A DNA stretch of 64,000 nucleotides from an uncultured Eubacterium sp. (GTDB lineage: Bacteria > Bacillota > Clostridia > Lachnospirales > Lachnospiraceae), in contig CAJOMD010000008.1 of NCBI GenBank assembly GCA_905235555.1, positions 1-64,000 of the forward strand, in the 5' to 3' direction. Both the position numbers and the translations under genes were made by a program. Positions 7,865 to 17,800 of the stretch are shown piece by piece; position 1 is the stretch's first letter, and the number at the start of each line of letters is the position of its first letter. The notes beneath the pieces are model-generated. The model worked only from the letters and a program-made list of their open reading frames with translations, was not told where the DNA came from and made no database searches.

Positions 7865-8494
7865 ATGACAGAGACTAATAAGGAAATTGCAATTATTGAA
7901 ATGTATATGAAAGATGTGGAAAATATTCCTCAACTTTCAGATGATGAAAAAGAAGATTTAATAATGCGATTAGCTGATGGAGATTCTTCAGTAGTTGAAG
8001 ATTTAGTTAATTCGGAGCTTTTGCATGTTGCTGAAATGGCTCAGAACTATCGCGATAAGGGCGTAACCTTTGGAGATTTGATTCAGGAAGGAAACGTTGC
8101 ACTCACGGAAGTGATTTCCGATTATGATGGAGACGGAGATTCTGAAGCATTTAATAAATTGGTGAATGAAGCTGTGACAGAAGCATTTGAAAATGCCATC
8201 AAAGATCAAGCAGATTCGGATAAGATTAATCAACACTTAGCTGATAAACTTAATCTTTTAGATGACACTACTAAAAAGTTGACTGAAAAACTTGGTAGAG
8301 TACCAGAGGCCAGTGAATTAGCTAAAGAGATGGATATCCCTGAAGAGGAGGTAGATAATCTATTAAAAATATCTTTAGAAGTATTGTCAGTGAATGAAGA
8401 TAGTCATCTAGCAGATGATATTGATTCATCTATAGACGAAACAGAAGAAGATGTATCAGATGAAGATCCATTAGACTGGAGAATTAACGGTTAA
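7865..8494 (+). CDS. Sigma-70-like protein lacking promoter-recognition regions
   Basis: This 209-residue acidic protein aligns by eye with a primary sigma factor. Residues ~12-40 match region 1.2 (IIEMYMKDVENIPQLSDDEKEDL) and ~45-85 match regions 2.1-2.2, including the core-RNA-polymerase-binding DLIQEGNVAL. Residues ~138-185 match region 3 (LTEKLGRVPEASELAKEM, then EDSHLADDI like region 3.2). Where sigma-A has the aromatic/basic -10-melting segment (FSTYATWWIRQAI), this protein has AFNKLVNEAVTEAFENAI. It ends in an acidic tail with no region 4. It could bind core polymerase without reading promoters; that is inference. The SD AGAGG and the hairpin terminator frame it as a single-gene unit. 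Confidence 0.85.
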   Translation: MTETNKEIAIIEMYMKDVENIPQLSDDEKEDLIMRLADGDSSVVEDLVNSELLHVAEMAQNYRDKGVTFGDLIQEGNVALTEVISDYDGDGDSEAFNKLVNEAVTEAFENAIKDQADSDKINQHLADKLNLLDDTTKKLTEKLGRVPEASELAKEMDIPEEEVDNLLKISLEVLSVNEDSHLADDIDSSIDETEEDVSDEDPLDWRING

Positions 8495-8498
8495 ACAT

Positions 8499-8531
8499 AA
8501 AAGTAGCGGTGGAAAAACCACCGCTACTTTT
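8499..8531. terminator. Bidirectional terminator
   Basis: A perfect 14-bp stem (AAAAGTAGCGGTGG / CCACCGCTACTTTT) with an AAAAA loop is flanked by T-runs on both sides. It lies between the plus-strand sigma-like gene and the minus-strand transketolase gene. Confidence 0.95.
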
Positions 8532-8542
8532 TTATTGTGATT

Positions 8543-9481
8543 CTATGCAAATATTTCTTTAATAGTTGAACAAACTCCTTCGCCATCTAGTCTATACTCG
8601 CTTAGGAGTTCAAGGGCCGGCCCTGAGTGTCCATATTCATCATTGATACCAATCTTCGTCTGAACTGTTGGATGATATGAAACTAATACATCAGATACTG
8701 CATCTCCCAAACCACCAATCACTGAATGTTCTTCCACTGTCACTACTCTGCCAGTCTTCTTTGCGCTTTCAATAATAATGTCTTTATCTATAGGCTTAAT
8801 AGTATGAATGTTAATTACTTCGGCGCTGATGCCGTCCTTTAGCAGTTTGTCTGATGCTTCTAGTGCTGACGAAACCATAAGACCTGTAGCAATAATAGTA
8901 ACATCATCACCATCTCTCATTTTCACACCTTTGCCCAACTCAAACTTATATGACTCATCATTTATGATTGGGGCAGCCAATCTACCAAATCTCATATAAA
9001 CTGGACCTTCCATCTCATATGCCGCTTTCACCGCCTGACGTGCTTCTATAGCATCCGATGGATTGATGATAGTCATTCCAGGAATAGTTCTCATTAGTGC
9101 AATATCTTCGTTACACTGGTGAGTGGCTCCGTCTTCTCCCACTGAGATACCAGCGTGTGTGGCACCTATCTTTACATTTAAGTGTGGATATCCGATAGTA
9201 TTTCTAATTTGCTCGTATGCACGCCCTGCTGCAAACATAGCAAATGAACTAGCAAATGGAACTTTACCGCAGGTAGATAAACCGGCTGCTATTCCCATCA
9301 TATTTTGCTCTGCAATACCACAATCTATATGTCTATCAGGAAATTCTTTTTGAAATTTATCAGTCTTTGTAGCGCCCGCCAAATCAGCATCTAACACTAT
9401 TACATCATCATGTTCTTTTGCTAATTCTATTAGCGCATCACCATAAGCTTCTCTGGTAGCAATTCTTATCTCTTCTGACAT
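8543..9481 (-). CDS. Transketolase, C-terminal subunit
   Basis: This is the pyrimidine-binding plus C-terminal half of a split transketolase, which with the N-terminal subunit moves two-carbon units between sugar phosphates in the non-oxidative pentose phosphate pathway. The 312-residue length is typical. It contains DLAGATKTDKF, FPDRHIDCGIAEQNMMGIAAG with the family's catalytic Glu, and a C-terminal swivelling domain (VVTVEEHSVIGGLGDAV). Its ATG overlaps the stop of the N-terminal subunit (TAATG), so the two are translationally coupled in a 1:1 arrangement. A DXS-like function is unlikely, because DXS is a single long chain. Confidence 0.93.
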   Translation of the reverse strand: MSEEIRIATREAYGDALIELAKEHDDVIVLDADLAGATKTDKFQKEFPDRHIDCGIAEQNMMGIAAGLSTCGKVPFASSFAMFAAGRAYEQIRNTIGYPHLNVKIGATHAGISVGEDGATHQCNEDIALMRTIPGMTIINPSDAIEARQAVKAAYEMEGPVYMRFGRLAAPIINDESYKFELGKGVKMRDGDDVTIIATGLMVSSALEASDKLLKDGISAEVINIHTIKPIDKDIIIESAKKTGRVVTVEEHSVIGGLGDAVSDVLVSYHPTVQTKIGINDEYGHSGPALELLSEYRLDGEGVCSTIKEIFA

Positions 9482-10302
9482 TATGCATCACCTCCCTCTA
9501 ATTCATTAAGAGCTTGTTCGCATAATTCATCATTTGGTGCCTTTCCATGCCAACCGGCTTGGTCTTCCATATATGAAACTCCTTTACCTTTTACTGTTTT
9601 CATAATGATAGCAGTTGGCTTTCCTTTTGTATTTTTCGCCTCTTCTAGTGCCGCTTTAATTTCGTCAAAGTCATGACCGTTTATGTCTATCACATAGAAG
9701 TTAAACGCTTCAAACTTTTGCTCGATAGGATATGGTGAGCATACCTCATCCAATGTGCCGTCAATTTGAAGATTATTGTTATCCACTATCGCTACCAAGT
9801 TATCAAGCTTTCTATGACCGGCAAACATTGCTGCTTCCCAAATCTGTCCCTCTTCAATCTCTCCATCACCTAGCAATGCATATGTTCTAAAGGATTTACC
9901 ATCCATCTTTGCAGCAAGCGCCATACCAACTGCAGTAGAAAAGCCTTGTCCTAGTGAACCTGAAGACATATCAACACCCGGAGTGTGTTTCATATCAGGG
10001 TGCCCCTGCAAATATGAATCAGGTTTTCTAAGAGATTCCAAATCTTCCTTTGGAATAAAACCACGCTCCGCCAAAACACCGTAAAGTGCTGGTGCAGTGT
10101 GTCCTTTAGACAAAACAAATCTGTCGCGGTCTGGATTGTCTGGGTTGGCAGGATCAATGTTCATTTCTTCGAAATACAAATATGTAAGCATATCTGTGCA
10201 CGAAAGCGAACCACCTGGGTGCCCTGATTTGGCCGCATGTGTCTGGACGATAATGTCCTTTCTCACTTCATTCGCAATGCTTTGAAGTTTTTCCATTTCC
10301 AT
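9481..10302 (-). CDS. Transketolase, N-terminal subunit
   Basis: This is the thiamine-diphosphate-binding half of the split transketolase. It shows KSGHPGGSLSCTDML at the N-terminus and the ThDP motif GDGEIEEGQIWEAAMFAGH...VDNN around residues 150-180. Its partner follows with a one-base overlap. The SD AGAGG precedes the start; a second ATG two codons later is also possible. It lies 12 nt or less downstream of the TPR/P-loop gene and is the continuation of the dnaX-recR transcript. Confidence 0.93.
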   Translation of the reverse strand: MEMEKLQSIANEVRKDIIVQTHAAKSGHPGGSLSCTDMLTYLYFEEMNIDPANPDNPDRDRFVLSKGHTAPALYGVLAERGFIPKEDLESLRKPDSYLQGHPDMKHTPGVDMSSGSLGQGFSTAVGMALAAKMDGKSFRTYALLGDGEIEEGQIWEAAMFAGHRKLDNLVAIVDNNNLQIDGTLDEVCSPYPIEQKFEAFNFYVIDINGHDFDEIKAALEEAKNTKGKPTAIIMKTVKGKGVSYMEDQAGWHGKAPNDELCEQALNELEGGDA

Positions 10303-10314
10303 CGTATTTCCTCT

Positions 10315-13191
10315 CTACTTTAGACTTATATTGAAATCTGACTCATCTAGTAATTTGAGTCCCTTGTCATCTTTCTTTGATCCAAACAGTTTCTTTCCAA
10401 ATCTATCACTTCTTGCAATAGCTTTATCAATGATTTCTTCCACATCTAGTCTGCCTATGTGAGCACCAAATGCATCATCTATGGATTTAAATAATGCAAG
10501 TTCTGCCACTTCATCCAATTTATACCCTTGAGTCTCTGCATATTCACTTCCATATGCAACCCACTCGCGAATATTATACTGTTTTATTTTTATAACATTA
10601 TTGAATGTTTGTCCAAGACTAACTGTTGATGAAAGAAGATCTTCCATAGGTTCAGTCTCTGCTTCCAAAATGATAATAGAATCTGTATTGTTTGGATATA
10701 GATATTTTACAATTTCTTGTATTGTGGTTTGATGAATTTCATGAGCATTCTCAATAATTAAATCACAACCTTTAATTTGGTTTAGAATGCTAGCGAAGCC
10801 TTTTCTATTTAAAGTACTTGCGCTAATCTTAGCAATCTTTCTATTTCTTCTCTCGCTCTTCTTATTTACAAGTTTAATAATTTCGATAGCCATTGTAGTT
10901 TTGCCTGTCTTCTCATCGCCCATCACAATGACATTAGCATTAATATCTTTTTCTTGCCCTGTGAACTTTTTGATAAGATTATTGCAAACTTTTTTCACTG
11001 CATCTTCTAAGCCTTCTACATTTAAGTAGTTTCCAAATACAGCCATGTCACTATCTTCTACATCAAATTTAACGCGTTCAGTGTTTAGTTCTTTATTCTT
11101 CTCTTTGCTCATCTCATGTTTTAATTCTTTTTTAACTGAAACATCTACCACTTTAGTGGCTCCTAGGTCTTCTGCGTTTTGGTTTAACTCTTCTTTTGGT
11201 TCTTCCTTAGGTTCTACTTTTGGCTCTTCCTTCGATTCCTCTTTTGGCAACTCAGGTTTATTATCTGGGGTTTCACCAGAAATCATATCTATTTGCGCCG
11301 AAGATTCATTGCTCTCTTTTAGAACCTTTTCAATCTTTGGTGCTGGAGTTTCTTCTAGTTCAGGTTTGCTATTGTCCTGAGTAGTATACTCCCCGGACAA
11401 ATCGAACACTGGAACATCCTTTGACTGCTCACTAGTAGGTTTAACTGCCTCATCCAAAACCTTTGCAGCCTGAATAGGTTTCTTGCTTTCTTTTTCTAGT
11501 TCTTCACCATCAGGCATAACCTCAGTAGGCTTATGCATAACATCGCCTATGTCCTTAGTTTCTCCTAAGTCTGCACTATCATTTAATTCTGGTTCAAAAT
11601 CATCTAACTCTCCAGCTTCCACTGGCGCTTTATCAGAATTATCTACTAGGTTACTCTCAATTTCTCTTTCATCATCGGCTTCCCACTTGTTTCCAATTTG
11701 AACTGTGTGGAATTTGCTGTCATCAGTTTTTTCTGCCTCAATTTCTTCTGGTTCTTCTCTTGTATATCTATTTTGAGGTTTTTCAAAGTCCTCAGTATTT
11801 GTTGCAGGTTCTTCAGAAGCTACCCCTTTCGTAACTGGTTCTTCAGAGGCTACTTCCTCCACAGTGGGCTCATCAGAAGTTACTTCCTCCGTAATTGGTT
11901 CTTCTAAAGTTTCATCTTTAGGTTCTTCTTGCTCACTCATAATGCTGTCTACTTCCTCTTTTAGTTCTTCCTCTATTTGATGAGTGTCACTATTTATAGC
12001 ATCTACTGCTTTATTTACAGTATCCGCTCCTAAGATTCCTCTTTCTTGAAGAGACTTGAGCATATCTTCCACATCATCCACGTCCGGCAAAGGTTCCTCT
12101 GCTGGTTTTTCAGAAATATCTGGTATATTCTCTTCTTTCAAAAAATCAGGTTTTTCGTAATTTTGTGTTTCATTTGGCTGTTCATACTTATTATTTGAAG
12201 GTGAGTCATCATTAAAGAAACTCATCTGCTGCGGACCTTCCTCTACAGGCTGAGCAGTCAAAATGTTTTCAGGCTGAATCTTTGGTTCATCAGCCACTTT
12301 AATCTCCGTAATATCAAATGAAGGCTTATACTCGTTTGCAGAATCAGTATTTTGAACTTCTGCCTCAAAGTTTGACTCTCCAAGCGGTTTATCTAAACCT
12401 GGCTTCACTAATTTTTCCTCCCCAAATCCTTCTTCTTTCAAATCAATGCCAAAATGACTTGGCTCTTCTGGTTCCACATATGGAGTACGTTCAGGCTGTT
12501 TTTCCATAATAGTTTCTAATGGACTCTTCGAAACATGAGGTTCACTCTTTGGTTTTTCGACCACTTTTTCCTCCTCCACTGGATCTTCCTTATCTAACAA
12601 CTGCTGCTGAGTAATGTTAAGCGGCTGAATGGTTTTCTTAAGTTCCATAGCCTTTTTAATGTAGCGCCCTTCGGAGAACCAAAGTCCCATCTCATCACAT
12701 AGTTCAACACACTTTGCTGTATCACCAGTTTCTTTATATAGTTTAGCAAGCTCGTAAGCCCACTTTTCTTCCATATCAATATTTACATACTCTTCCAAAA
12801 TCTTGATTAACTCATCTTTTGGCTTGTTTAATGCTTCCGCCATTTTGTATTTTAGTACATAGCGACCAGTATCCTTTGGTGCCATCTCGACAAAGTCTTC
12901 GTAATATTCTTCAGCCTCGTCTATCTCTCCATTATTAATTGAAACAAGACATAATCTGTAAGCCAAGTGTCTTCCAGCCTTTGTATTTTCGTAAGCGTAA
13001 AGAAGAACTTGCTTTGCTAATTCATAATCATTAGATAATTCATATGCATCGGCAATCAAGCAAAGCAGATTGTTGTCTCTGATATGTTTTATATCAAGAG
13101 TGTCTGCAATCTGTACTGCAGTGTCATAATCCCTGTTGTTCATAGCAGTTTTAAATTGTTCAATTTTTCCGTCTTGTTCTACTTTTCCCAT
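10315..13191 (-). CDS. TPR / disordered / P-loop ATPase protein of unknown function
   Basis: This large protein (~958 residues) has three visible parts. Residues ~1-190 are helical TPR-like repeats (DYDTAVQIADTLDI, NDYELAKQVLLYAYENT, GEIDEAEEYYEDFVEM). Residues ~200-700 are a low-complexity, Glu/Pro-rich, probably disordered stretch with short repeats such as EEPVTKGVASEEPAT. The last ~240 residues hold an AAA-like nucleotide-binding domain with Walker A GDEKTGKT (~760) and Walker B-like CDLIIENAH (~810). I cannot assign a function. It sits between recR and the transketolase genes with 12-18 nt gaps. The start was moved to the ATG two codons after the TTG because AGAGGA lies 7 nt before it. 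Confidence 0.85.
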   Translation of the reverse strand: MGKVEQDGKIEQFKTAMNNRDYDTAVQIADTLDIKHIRDNNLLCLIADAYELSNDYELAKQVLLYAYENTKAGRHLAYRLCLVSINNGEIDEAEEYYEDFVEMAPKDTGRYVLKYKMAEALNKPKDELIKILEEYVNIDMEEKWAYELAKLYKETGDTAKCVELCDEMGLWFSEGRYIKKAMELKKTIQPLNITQQQLLDKEDPVEEEKVVEKPKSEPHVSKSPLETIMEKQPERTPYVEPEEPSHFGIDLKEEGFGEEKLVKPGLDKPLGESNFEAEVQNTDSANEYKPSFDITEIKVADEPKIQPENILTAQPVEEGPQQMSFFNDDSPSNNKYEQPNETQNYEKPDFLKEENIPDISEKPAEEPLPDVDDVEDMLKSLQERGILGADTVNKAVDAINSDTHQIEEELKEEVDSIMSEQEEPKDETLEEPITEEVTSDEPTVEEVASEEPVTKGVASEEPATNTEDFEKPQNRYTREEPEEIEAEKTDDSKFHTVQIGNKWEADDEREIESNLVDNSDKAPVEAGELDDFEPELNDSADLGETKDIGDVMHKPTEVMPDGEELEKESKKPIQAAKVLDEAVKPTSEQSKDVPVFDLSGEYTTQDNSKPELEETPAPKIEKVLKESNESSAQIDMISGETPDNKPELPKEESKEEPKVEPKEEPKEELNQNAEDLGATKVVDVSVKKELKHEMSKEKNKELNTERVKFDVEDSDMAVFGNYLNVEGLEDAVKKVCNNLIKKFTGQEKDINANVIVMGDEKTGKTTMAIEIIKLVNKKSERRNRKIAKISASTLNRKGFASILNQIKGCDLIIENAHEIHQTTIQEIVKYLYPNNTDSIIILEAETEPMEDLLSSTVSLGQTFNNVIKIKQYNIREWVAYGSEYAETQGYKLDEVAELALFKSIDDAFGAHIGRLDVEEIIDKAIARSDRFGKKLFGSKKDDKGLKLLDESDFNISLK

Positions 13192-13209
13192 TTTCAATTC
13201 CTCTTAAGA

Positions 13210-13806
13210 TTATATAGTTACACGTCCCTGCAAAGCACGAAGTAATGTCACATTATCAATACACTCTAAATCTCCGCCCACTGGAACACCACTAGCAATT
13301 CTTGAAACCTTTATTCCAAGTGGTTTAACCACCTTACTTATATACATAGCTGTGGCCTCGCCTTCCACACTAGAATTAGTGGCGATAATCACTTCATCCA
13401 CATCGTCCTTCAGGCGTTCGAACAATTCTTTGAGGCGGATGTCATTTTGTGTGATTCCTGCCATTGGGTTAATAGCGCCGTGCAAAACATGGTAAACACC
13501 TTTGTACTCTCCCACGCTCTCATAAGCAGCCATATCCTTTGTAGTTTCAACTACCATAATAGTTTTTTTATCACGTTCGTCACTGCTACAAATAGGACAA
13601 ACCTCCTGGTCTGTCAAAGTTTGGCAACATTTACAAAACTTTACATTCTTCTTTGCCTCCACTAAAGCATTGGCCAAACCATCCACTTCATCTTGTGGCA
13701 TATCCAATATATGAAAAGCAAGTCTGCCCGCAGTTTTAGAACCAACTCCAGGAAGGCTTGATAATTCATCTATTAACTTTGTAATATAACCACTGTAATA
13801 ATCCAC
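13210..13806 (-). CDS. recR: Recombination mediator RecR
   Basis: RecR works with RecF/RecO to load RecA at gaps during recombinational repair. At 198 residues it is full length. An N-terminal helix-hairpin-helix (LPGVGSKTAGRLAFHIL), the four-cysteine zinc finger (CKCCQTLTDQEVCPIC) and a Toprim domain (IMVVETTKDMAAYESVG) are present in the expected order. It lies 9 nt after ybaB, in the classical dnaX-ybaB-recR order. Confidence 0.97.
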   Translation of the reverse strand: MDYYSGYITKLIDELSSLPGVGSKTAGRLAFHILDMPQDEVDGLANALVEAKKNVKFCKCCQTLTDQEVCPICSSDERDKKTIMVVETTKDMAAYESVGEYKGVYHVLHGAINPMAGITQNDIRLKELFERLKDDVDEVIIATNSSVEGEATAMYISKVVKPLGIKVSRIASGVPVGGDLECIDNVTLLRALQGRVTI

Positions 13807-13815
13807 TTTTGCTCC

Positions 13816-14154
13816 TTAGAACAATCCACCCATACCGCCAGTAATTTTAGACATTTCTTCCTGGGTCTGCTCTTCCATCTTTCTGATTGCTTCATTGACA
13901 GCTGCAGTCACCAAATCCTCCAATGTCTCTACATCTTCTGGGTCCACTACATCTGGATCAATTTTAATGCTCTTAATTTCTTTGTTTCCGCCCACAGTCA
14001 CTTCTACAACACCGCCGCCTGCTGATGCTGTGAATTCGCTAGCCTCTAGTTCCTCCTGCGCCTCAGCCATCTGTTGCTGCATCTTCTGAGCTTGTTTCAT
14101 TAAATTTCCCATATTAGATGGCATACCGCCTGGGAATCCACCTTTCTTAGCCAT
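13816..14154 (-). CDS. YbaB/EbfC nucleoid-associated protein
   Basis: This small 112-residue DNA-binding protein of the YbaB family acts as a dimer on the nucleoid. The central helix ([24 protein letters not shown]) and the beta strands [21 protein letters not shown] are typical. The start overlaps the last base of dnaX, and recR follows 9 nt later. The Gly/Met-rich ends are common in the family. Confidence 0.95.
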
Positions 14155-15767
14155 TAAAAATCTTCCTCCTCAATTTCTAAATCTATTTTTGATGAAATAA
14201 TTTGAAAATAGTTTTCGTTTCCGTCTGGTTTCTTTTGAGTCATCTCGACTTGAACATCTTTTTTTATCTGTTCTCTAATGATGGTGTTAATCATATCCAT
14301 CATCTCTATAGTGTTGCACTCTCCAAACATAATGTCGTCAGAATCAAACACGATAAGCAATGTGTCTTCACCTTTTACAGCGAGTGATACCTTTTTAAAG
14401 TTGGCCTTCTCCAAAGGGCTCATATGATTTAGAACCATATTCCAGTTATCAGCCACATACTGAACATCCTCTGGCACAGCCTTATCTATAGGCTCTTCCT
14501 TTGGCGCTTCCTTTGGTTCCTCGTCAAGAATATCTGCCTCCGGCAAAGGATTTCCATTAGTCACCATTTCAGCATTCGCTCTTCTAACTGGAGCAGCATC
14601 CACTTTTATATTTCCACTCTCGATCTTGTTTTCTAAAACCGAAATTCTATTTATCAATGATTCGTAATCGTTCTCCATGGCAGGAGTATTAAGTTTGATA
14701 AGCGCAATCTCAAGTAAAACTCTCTTCTGGTCTGAATACTTAATCTGTGCAGCTGTCTCTGATAGTACTCTGATATATCTCATAACAGATTCATTATCTA
14801 TCATCTCTGATTCCTGCTTAAGTGCTTCTATTCTTTCCATTGGAGCATCTATCACTTCCATAGCATCTTCAGAACCTTTTACAAGCATTAGGTTTCTCAA
14901 ATACCAAATGAAGTCATTTACAAACTGACCAAGCTCACGACCTTGAATGATTACCTCATCCAAAATCTTCATAGTGTTTGCAACATCGCCTTGGATAATG
15001 CATCTAATTAAACGACTAAACACTTCTTGATCTACTGCACCCAAAACCTCAAGCACATTTTCGTATGTGAGCTCTTGGTCTGAGTAAAATGCTATGCACT
15101 GATCAAGCAAACTTAATGCATCACGCATAGAGCCGTCTGCCACTTTTGCAATATAGCGAAGAGCCTTGTCATCCACACTTATGTTTTCTTTATTCATCAA
15201 CTCTTCTAGTCTGTCCACTATAGTCTCAATAGAAATACGTTTGAAATCATATCTCTGACATCTAGAAAGAATAGTGACTGGAATCTTATGAGGCTCTGTA
15301 GTAGCAAGTATAAAAATAACATATGCTGGTGGTTCTTCTAGCGTTTTCAAAAGTGCATTAAACGCTGAAGGGCTCAACATATGTACCTCATCAATAATAT
15401 ATACTGTATATTTACCCACTGTTGGTGAGTATTGAATTTCTTCTATAATCTGGCGGACATTCTCCACTCCATTGTTAGAAGCGGCATCCATCTCGATAAT
15501 GTTAGGTGCACTTCCGCCTTCTGAAGCCTTACATGTTTCACACTCCCCGCAAGGGCTTCCGTCTACTGGATTTTCACAGTTAACTGCGCGCGCCAAAATC
15601 TTAGCCACACTAGTCTTACCAGTTCCTCTAGTACCACAAAAAAGGTATGCGTGTCCTATTCTATCAGAATTAATCTGATTTTTAAGAGTGGTAACTATGT
15701 GGTCCTGGCCTTTGACTTCGTCAAAAGTATTAGGTCTAAATTTTCTATATAAAGCTTGATAAGACAT
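14154..15767 (-). CDS. dnaX: DNA polymerase III subunit gamma/tau
   Basis: DnaX is the clamp-loader ATPase of the replicative polymerase. It starts with the family's [12 protein letters not shown], then Walker [10 protein letters not shown] (~45-53), the zinc cluster [16 protein letters not shown], Walker B IIDEVHML, and the sensor 1/SRC motif [18 protein letters not shown]. The C-terminal third (to 537) is shorter than E. coli tau and fits Firmicute proteins. The SRP RNA gene lies just upstream, and ybaB and recR follow with minimal spacing, a conserved Gram-positive arrangement. Confidence 0.97.
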
Positions 15768-16100: not shown

Positions 16101-16544
16101 TTATCGGAGTTTTTTGAAGAAATTCTTCAAAATTTCACTACATTCTGACTCCAATACACCACTTTCTATCTCTACCTTATGGTTAAACTCGTCCATCTGC
16201 AAAAGATTCATAATAGAACCCGCGCAACCAGCCTTTGGATTCATGCAGCCAATATAAACTTTCTTAATTCTAGCCTGTACTATGGCTCCTGAGCACATCT
16301 GACATGGCTCAGTGGTTACATACATCTCACAATCATCCAAACGCCAGTCTTTTAATTTCTTACTAGCTTTTTTGATAGCATTGAGTTCCGCATGCGACAA
16401 AGTATTTTTATCCTTCATCCTACGGTTATAACCACGCCCAATAATTTTGCCATCTTTCACTATCACACAGCCTATCGGAACTTCATTATTTTTATTTGCT
16501 TTCTCGGCTTCTTTCAAAGCCTCTCTCATATATTGTTCTTTCAT
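16101..16544 (-). CDS. tadA: tRNA adenosine(34) deaminase
   Basis: TadA converts A34 to inosine in the tRNA-Arg(ACG) wobble position. The 147-residue protein shows the zinc/catalytic motif HAELNAI and the second ligand pair PCQMCSGAI, with the typical C-terminal FF(K)KLR ending. Its start codon overlaps the stop of the DUF4143 ATPase gene (TAATG), which is unusual for tadA and suggests the ATPase gene became fused into the transcript. The SRP RNA and dnaX follow downstream in the conserved order. Confidence 0.95.
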   Translation of the reverse strand: MKEQYMREALKEAEKANKNNEVPIGCVIVKDGKIIGRGYNRRMKDKNTLSHAELNAIKKASKKLKDWRLDDCEMYVTTEPCQMCSGAIVQARIKKVYIGCMNPKAGCAGSIMNLLQMDEFNHKVEIESGVLESECSEILKNFFKKLR

Positions 16545-17800
16545 TAAATCATCTCCACTGGAATCGCAATATTATTCTTGTTTAAATATATTGGTTCTTG
16601 ATACATACATATCACCGTTCCTTGCCCCAGTTTTTTATTAGGAACTTTGCTTAAGACATCAAATGCATTTGTCATTTCCAATTTAGGGTTAGCTGACAAT
16701 TTAATCTCTACTGGATAAAGCGTGTCTGCAGTTTCTATTACAATGTCTATTTCCGCTTCTTTGGTAGTTTTCACTCCGTTTTTTTGTCTTCTAATTTTGT
16801 CTTTACCTCTGTAGTATGAGATATACATCCTGTGGTCATAACCTGCATTCGTAAAACTCTTAAGAATCTCTGACACCACAAATGTTTCAAATATTTCTCC
16901 TGCCATATGTCCATTCATTAACATTTCTGGAGTCTGGTGTTTTGTCAAATAGCAAACAAGTCCCGTATCTCTAAAATATATTTTTGGGGTTTTAATAGCT
17001 CTTTTCAAAACTGAATTCGAATATGGTTGCATAATATAAATTAAGTCTGATGCTTCCAGTATAGAAATCCATTCCTTAATAGTTTTTTGCTCAGCTTCTA
17101 CTTGTTCAGCTATATTAGAATAATTGATAATCTGCCCCGTACGCGCCGCTAGTATGGACATAAATTTTGCAAATTTGGTTTTATCTTGCACCTTAGTTAA
17201 ATCATTTACGTCTCTATCAATATATGTAGATATGTATGATTCGTAAAACAATTGCCAATCACAATCCGTCGCAACTAATTCTGGGTAGTTCCCTCTATGT
17301 ATTCTTTCCCAAATATCATCACACTTTTTAAATTTGTTTTTTCGTTTTTGAATAAAATCGTCTGTAGGTATAAAAGGCTCATTAAAAGAATCTCCCAATA
17401 TTTCCCTTAGTGATAGCCCTGACAATCTCAAAATAGCTACTCTGCCTGCAAGTGATTCTGAGACATTTTTCATTAAATGAAATTGTTGCGACCCCGTCAA
17501 AGCGAATAGACCTCTTTCATTAGATTCGTCACATTTGATTTTTATATATGGAAAAAGATCAGTAATATACTGTATTTCATCTAAAATAATTGGTGGTTTA
17601 TTATTCAAAAAGAATAATCCCGGCTCTTCTTTCGCATCATTAAGAGCCAACGGATTGTCAAAAGATATGTATCTGTAACCTTCTGTCATTTGTTGAAGCA
17701 ATGTTGATTTTCCTACTTGTCTTGCGCCAGTTACTAACACTGCCTTAAATTGTTTCATACTTTTATTAAAAGTTTTCTCTATTGCTCGTGAAATGTACAT
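16544..17800 (-). CDS. AAA_14/DUF4143 family ATPase
   Basis: This 418-residue protein combines an N-terminal ATPase (Walker A VTGARQVGKSTLLQQ, Walker B IILDEIQY, near residues 23-80) with a C-terminal DUF4143 domain. The latter contains a PD-(D/E)xK-nuclease-like pattern (EIDIVIETADTLYPVEIKLS, ~345-370). The family is widespread and often patchily distributed. Its function is unproven, with defence or toxin-like roles proposed only by context. It has its own promoter with an inverted repeat, and its stop overlaps the tadA start. The SD AGGAGGG supports the ATG. Confidence 0.88.
   Translation of the reverse strand: MYISRAIEKTFNKSMKQFKAVLVTGARQVGKSTLLQQMTEGYRYISFDNPLALNDAKEEPGLFFLNNKPPIILDEIQYITDLFPYIKIKCDESNERGLFALTGSQQFHLMKNVSESLAGRVAILRLSGLSLREILGDSFNEPFIPTDDFIQKRKNKFKKCDDIWERIHRGNYPELVATDCDWQLFYESYISTYIDRDVNDLTKVQDKTKFAKFMSILAARTGQIINYSNIAEQVEAEQKTIKEWISILEASDLIYIMQPYSNSVLKRAIKTPKIYFRDTGLVCYLTKHQTPEMLMNGHMAGEIFETFVVSEILKSFTNAGYDHRMYISYYRGKDKIRRQKNGVKTTKEAEIDIVIETADTLYPVEIKLSANPKLEMTNAFDVLSKVPNKKLGQGTVICMYQEPIYLNKNNIAIPVEMI

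Follow-up and report, generated by a model that had tools for sequence, protein, structure and literature searches.

The closest described systems are three AAA+ ATPases of a single clade: CbbX, the activase of red-type Rubisco; SpoVK, the chaperone of MurG in sporulation; and EccA, the ATPase of type VII secretion systems (T7SS; TIGR03922). EccA joins a TPR to a CbbX-type AAA+ domain, in that order (PMC10659427). SpoVK is confined to sporulating Firmicutes, and disruption of its Walker A, its Walker B, or its arginine finger impairs sporulation in the way that a deletion does (PMC10659427).

The window analyzed here (the whole stretch of DNA under study, 64,000 nucleotides from an uncultured Eubacterium sp. 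of the Lachnospiraceae) encodes a protein of 958 amino acids that is a new, family-wide relative of these AAA+ chaperones, one whose motor is lost and which has acquired a long linker bearing motifs. Its features and those of its neighbors lie at the following positions of the window.

10315..13191, minus strand: whole ORF, 958 aa, comprising TPR, acidic disordered linker, and pseudo-AAA+ domain (ORF translation and orthologs)
12574..13191, minus strand: residues 1-206, an alpha-solenoid of TPR type and the best-conserved region (Pfam, alignment, AlphaFold, Foldseek)
11074..12573, minus strand: residues 207-706, acidic disordered linker (composition and conservation profile)
12205..12231, minus strand: residues 321-329, QQMSFFNDD, sliding-clamp-like peptide, an unproven lead (invariant run QMSFFNDD within the genus)
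11986..12078, minus strand: residues 372-402 around DMLKSLQERGILGADTVNKAVDAIN, divergent motif B (conserved linear motif, bridged by loci L118 and L057)
10318..11070, minus strand: residues 708-958, CbbX/SpoVK/EccA-clade AAA+ domain in degenerate form (PDB profile, NCBIfam, AlphaFold, Foldseek)
10897..10920, minus strand: residues 758-765, Walker A GDEKTGKT, intact in the window's genus (sequence and alignment)
10744..10761, minus strand: residues 811-816, LIIENA at the Walker-B position, with D changed to E and the catalytic E to N (alignment)
13210..15767, minus strand: recR, ybaB, and dnaX, upstream and co-directional (Pfam and ORF reading)
8543..10302, minus strand: transketolase halves tktN and tktC, downstream (followed by the terminator-like hairpin at 8499-8531)

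An earlier note on this DNA had described a TPR end, a disordered stretch of some 500 residues, and a P-loop domain, and all three are indeed present. Because the same three parts recur in orthologs of nearly every genus of the family, the architecture is, judged by this comparison of sequences, not a product of chance. The intergenic gaps of about 12 nt reported in the same place are likewise borne out: 12 nt separate the end of the ORF from tktN, and 12 nt separate recR from an alternative TTG start at 13197, which would add two residues, the spacing being 18 nt when counted from the ATG at 13191 on which the length of 958 residues is based. The genes follow one another on one strand in the order dnaX, ybaB, recR, the 958-aa ORF, tktN, and tktC, and no hairpin-plus-T site in the region is stronger than the hairpin directly beyond tktC.

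To establish how widely the gene occurs, we searched 120 genomes of the same GTDB family, one per genus. The protein is present in 119 of these Lachnospiraceae genera and in all 101 genomes of good quality (completeness of 90% or more, contamination of 5% or less); the single genome lacking it is 67% complete. Searches outside the family used the TPR-domain profile at a threshold of 1e-8 in order, class, and phylum samples, which overlap. In the order sample the profile matches all 22 Lachnospiraceae members and 2 of the 174 others; among non-family genomes it matches 1 of 281 in the class sample and 0 of 345 in the phylum sample. The gene is near-universal in, and restricted to, the Lachnospiraceae. 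Nearly all of the approximately 115 loci that we read encode the TPR domain, the linker, and a full or partial C-terminal domain, most exceptions being cut by contig ends. An apparent gene split at locus L115 was rejected as a frameshift, and a 2473-aa ORF at locus L184 was set aside since it runs across unknown (N) sequence. A literature search covering the gene, Lachnospiraceae signature proteins, and pseudo-AAA+ adaptors found nothing on this protein, and a PADLOC scan assigned it to no defense family.

The N-terminal domain consists of tandem helix-turn-helix TPR repeats, as seen in a Pfam TPR_8 match above cut-off (E = 7e-6), in an AlphaFold model of 12 helices with a pLDDT of 93.7, and in the TPR matches that Foldseek returns for this model. 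Its identity to other genera, the window's own clade excluded, is about 33-47%, and an alignment of 42 sequences contains 15 invariant columns, E147, C165, and K185 among them. Within KCVELCDE, C161 and C165 stand four residues apart, the former nearly invariant across these 42 sequences. Against the PDB, the TPR profile retrieves generic TPRs, with no EccA chain among the best 60 of 75 matches.

Over both the AAA+ core and the lid, significant similarity in profile and fold (PDB, NCBIfam, and Foldseek) places the C-terminal domain, by descent, in the CbbX/SpoVK/EccA clade of AAA+ proteins. In the PDB, a profile built from 38 members finds CbbX at 2.7e-16 and EccA1 at 7.5e-10. An NCBIfam scan of the 38 members returns, as distant relatives, SpoVK (TIGR02881) for 38 of 38, CbbX for 37, and EccA for 31; the window protein's own SpoVK and CbbX scores fall far below the cut-offs of those models, the equivalog cut-off of CbbX included. 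The AlphaFold model of the domain, which like that of the TPR domain represents a single domain free of oligomers and ligands, is folded over 250 residues (pLDDT 87), and its best Foldseek match is CbbX, in a loose superposition (TM about 0.55). Neither Pfam nor NCBIfam has a model that scores above its own cut-off on this domain, and whole-protein searches of Pfam, NCBIfam, and the PDB yield only the TPR and weak SpoVK/CbbX matches. Present in every good-quality genome sampled from one of the dominant families in the guts of humans and ruminants, almost absent elsewhere, and ending in a domain with no passing model, the protein is a prime candidate for family-specific biology.

Closer examination of the conserved motifs sets this domain apart from its relatives. 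The stretch containing pore loop 1 is deleted in all 47 domains aligned to CbbX. Among 89 domains, the catalytic glutamate of Walker B is present in 7, the window having asparagine; the preceding aspartate position is a nearly invariant glutamate; and the tyrosine of the sensor-1 GY occurs in none. Arginine occupies the first finger position in 10 of the 89 and the second, last position in 5, while the asparagine four residues before the first finger is kept in 39. Walker A (GxxxxGK[ST]) is complete in 51 of the 89, the window included, and even a lenient set of Walker A, the Walker-B glutamate, and one arginine is kept by only two members. On a tree of the TPR domain, loss of Walker A calls for at least three changes and is found in three groups, one of which has replaced the P-loop outright. 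Because the gene is kept everywhere while these motifs are discarded, dependence on ATP-driven remodeling or threading appears unlikely.

These results modify the earlier account of the C-terminus on three points. GDEKTGKT does belong to the C-terminal domain, but it opens that domain, about 200 residues before the end of the protein. The NTPase is doubtful: the AAA+ fold is there, but the motifs for hydrolysis and threading are gone family-wide and Walker A is eroded in about 40% of members. Finally, clear homology of the domain to a characterized ATPase family with a known job was to count against the earlier reading, and it does so in part: such a family is now identified, but its job has probably not been passed on, given the loss of the motor parts.

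Each known relative shares some elements with the protein and differs in others. Like EccA, the protein has a TPR at its N-terminus and, after it, a CbbX-clade AAA+ domain; unlike EccA, it lacks the catalytic motifs and the pore loop, carries a long acidic linker between the domains, and has no tie to a T7SS. No T7SS genes were recognized among the typed neighbors, and a search of 31 family genomes finds EssC above cut-off in only 11, the window's genome not being one of these. CbbX, the best profile and fold match, keeps its motor motifs and possesses neither a TPR nor a long linker. SpoVK belongs to the same AAA+ clade but needs Walker A, Walker B, and the arginine finger, most of which are missing here (PMC10659427).

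Two of the only three out-of-family proteins that match the TPR profile at 1e-8 in our samples, those of loci L179 and L181, also resemble the family protein. Their TPRs match the family profile at 2.5e-10 and 2.6e-15 and precede CbbX-type domains with AAA_lid_6, but the proteins contain two or four AAA+ domains, the majority of which have intact motifs, and no long acidic linker. Because they join a similar TPR to mostly intact CbbX-type domains, descent of the family protein from an EccA-type TPR-AAA+ remodeler is plausible; because the similarity of the TPRs is modest and TPRs readily give matches, this is an ancestry that we infer.

The same tandem proteins, together with the domain order shared with EccA (PMC10659427) and the intact Walker A of the window, are what an active EccA- or CbbX-like remodeling ATPase would lead one to expect, in which the TPR would recruit a client, an AAA+ ring would remodel it, and the linker would be a passive tether. 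We nonetheless regard such an enzyme as unlikely, given the deleted pore loop, the lost catalytic glutamate, GY, and arginine finger, the whole subclades that keep the gene but lose Walker A, and the precedent of SpoVK, in which motif disruptions act like deletion (PMC10659427).

We favor instead, with a probability of roughly 0.6, a Lachnospiraceae-specific cytosolic scaffold or adaptor with a pseudo-AAA+ domain over an energy-using NTPase. In such a scaffold the N-terminal solenoid would bind one conserved partner, the long acidic linker would give reach and display short binding motifs, and the C-terminal domain, formerly a CbbX/SpoVK/EccA-type module, would serve as a folded binding or oligomerizing platform and not as a motor. 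Since the window's genus keeps Walker A, binding of nucleotide without turnover is possible there; because more than half of the family also has the motif intact, selection for nucleotide binding probably persists in some lineages, where the ligand might be structural or act as a switch. Against the scaffold stand this retention of Walker A, the nearly invariant glutamate at the Walker-B aspartate position, and a possible non-canonical hydrolysis by the C-terminal domain. The bolder proposal that the protein is a family-defining hub, an obligate core scaffold in which a captured AAA+ remodeler had its motor disabled and a motif-bearing acidic linker inserted, and which organizes an essential process managed in another way by other Clostridia, seems to us doubtful, with some chance of being right. 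In either event the family offers a clean case of an AAA+ machine that has kept its fold and shed its motor, and the intact relatives available for comparison make the role of the pseudo-AAA+ domain directly testable.

Two variant loci, from two genera, fit modules that work as binding parts. At locus L126 (5826-6629) a 267-aa version consists of the TPR domain and a short tail only, and at locus L178 (2283-7888) the two halves are adjacent, separate genes 44 nt apart, one encoding a TPR-acidic protein and the other a protein rich in Ala and Lys that ends in a pseudo-AAA+ domain. A 567-aa ORF lying 3 nt after the TPR-only gene of L126 looks like a DHH-family protein (manganese pyrophosphatase-like), its typed homolog beside the gene at locus L168 being one.

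The linker of the window protein spans 500 residues, of which 28% are aspartate or glutamate (20% glutamate), with a net charge of -0.17 per residue. It and the linkers of all 89 orthologs measured fall on the disordered side of the charge-hydropathy line, and across the family the linker is acidic in every member while its length ranges from 106 to 1220 aa around a median of 470. Two folded ends joined by an acidic linker of variable length lend support to the tether proposed in the earlier note. Two motifs recur in these linkers, in more than 20 to 30 genera: motif A, YNT[IV]NLQkEL, in at least 23 of 96 linkers and motif B, QITGQ[ML]SI.DILAEWE, in at least 34 of 96, both by strict pattern. 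Outside the family protein, motif B was found in none of 25 genomes searched, bar one marginal match at E = 0.1. Profiles of the two motifs find nothing credible in the PDB, where motif A retrieves designed coiled coils and motif B retrieves FlgG at 0.29. Both look like candidate docking motifs. The divergent motif B of the window connects to the form of other clades through loci L118 and L057.

Long, acidic, variable in length, conserved in composition, and studded with short motifs, such a linker might also drive clustering or localization and so make the protein a condensate or polar scaffold. A strongly acidic chain may, however, repel itself instead of condensing, and we hold this proposal to be very unlikely.

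One further stretch of the window linker, QMSFF, resembles sliding-clamp-binding peptides. It belongs to QMSFFNDD, one of 11 runs that are invariant in this linker within the window's genus. Only there does the clamp-like form occur; the related motif B elsewhere, GQ[ML]SI.DI, lacks the aromatic position. Sliding-clamp binding, suggested by motif resemblance, is kept as a minor lead only.

The gene neighborhood varies across the family. Within three genes upstream, recR or dnaX occurs at 26 loci, and because these represent several deep clades the linkage to recR may be ancestral; in most genera the gene is located away from recR. A replication or repair factor working with dnaX and recR, and held on the sliding clamp through QMSFF, would account for this linkage and for the invariance of the peptide within the genus. 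The position of the gene away from recR in most genera, the restriction of the clamp-like form to a single genus, and the ten other invariant runs of that genus's linker make such a factor highly improbable.

Immediately adjacent to the gene, glgB or glgP is found at 48 loci and a HAD-IIB phosphatase at 10, and tkt adjoins it in the window's clade and part of the clade with JetABC, whose genes lie within three genes upstream of the TPR gene at 12 loci. Together with the ability of its relative CbbX to activate a sugar-phosphate enzyme (PMC10659427), these adjacencies could point to a dedicated chaperone or organizer of glycogen or sugar-phosphate enzymes (GlgB, GlgP, transketolase, and HAD phosphatase). 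Yet different enzymes adjoin the gene in different clades, rsmA, cvpA, and a DHH-protein gene are also recurrent neighbors, and adjacency can be inherited once per clade, which leaves the organizer rather improbable. The suggestion that position hints at a role in DNA or central metabolism is thus unsupported. We rejected assignment of function by neighborhood: neighbors change from clade to clade while the gene is kept, so position cannot identify function, and the scaffold or adaptor is the reading that we retain.

Several neighbors were also noted. At locus L063 (1502-8224) and about 11 others, the Wadjet type III genes JetA, JetB, and JetC directly precede the TPR gene and, wherever recR can be seen, separate the two; among the neighbors inspected, none was recognized as JetD. 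Adjoining tadA in the window is an AAA_14/DUF4143 ATPase (16544-17800, minus strand). On the strand opposite the dnaX-recR-tkt run, the window encodes a sigma-70-like protein (7865-8494, plus strand) in which regions 2 and 3, and not region 4, are recognized; 209 aa long in the window's genus, it is kept beside the operon, with equivalents at loci L032-L038, L040, and L046.
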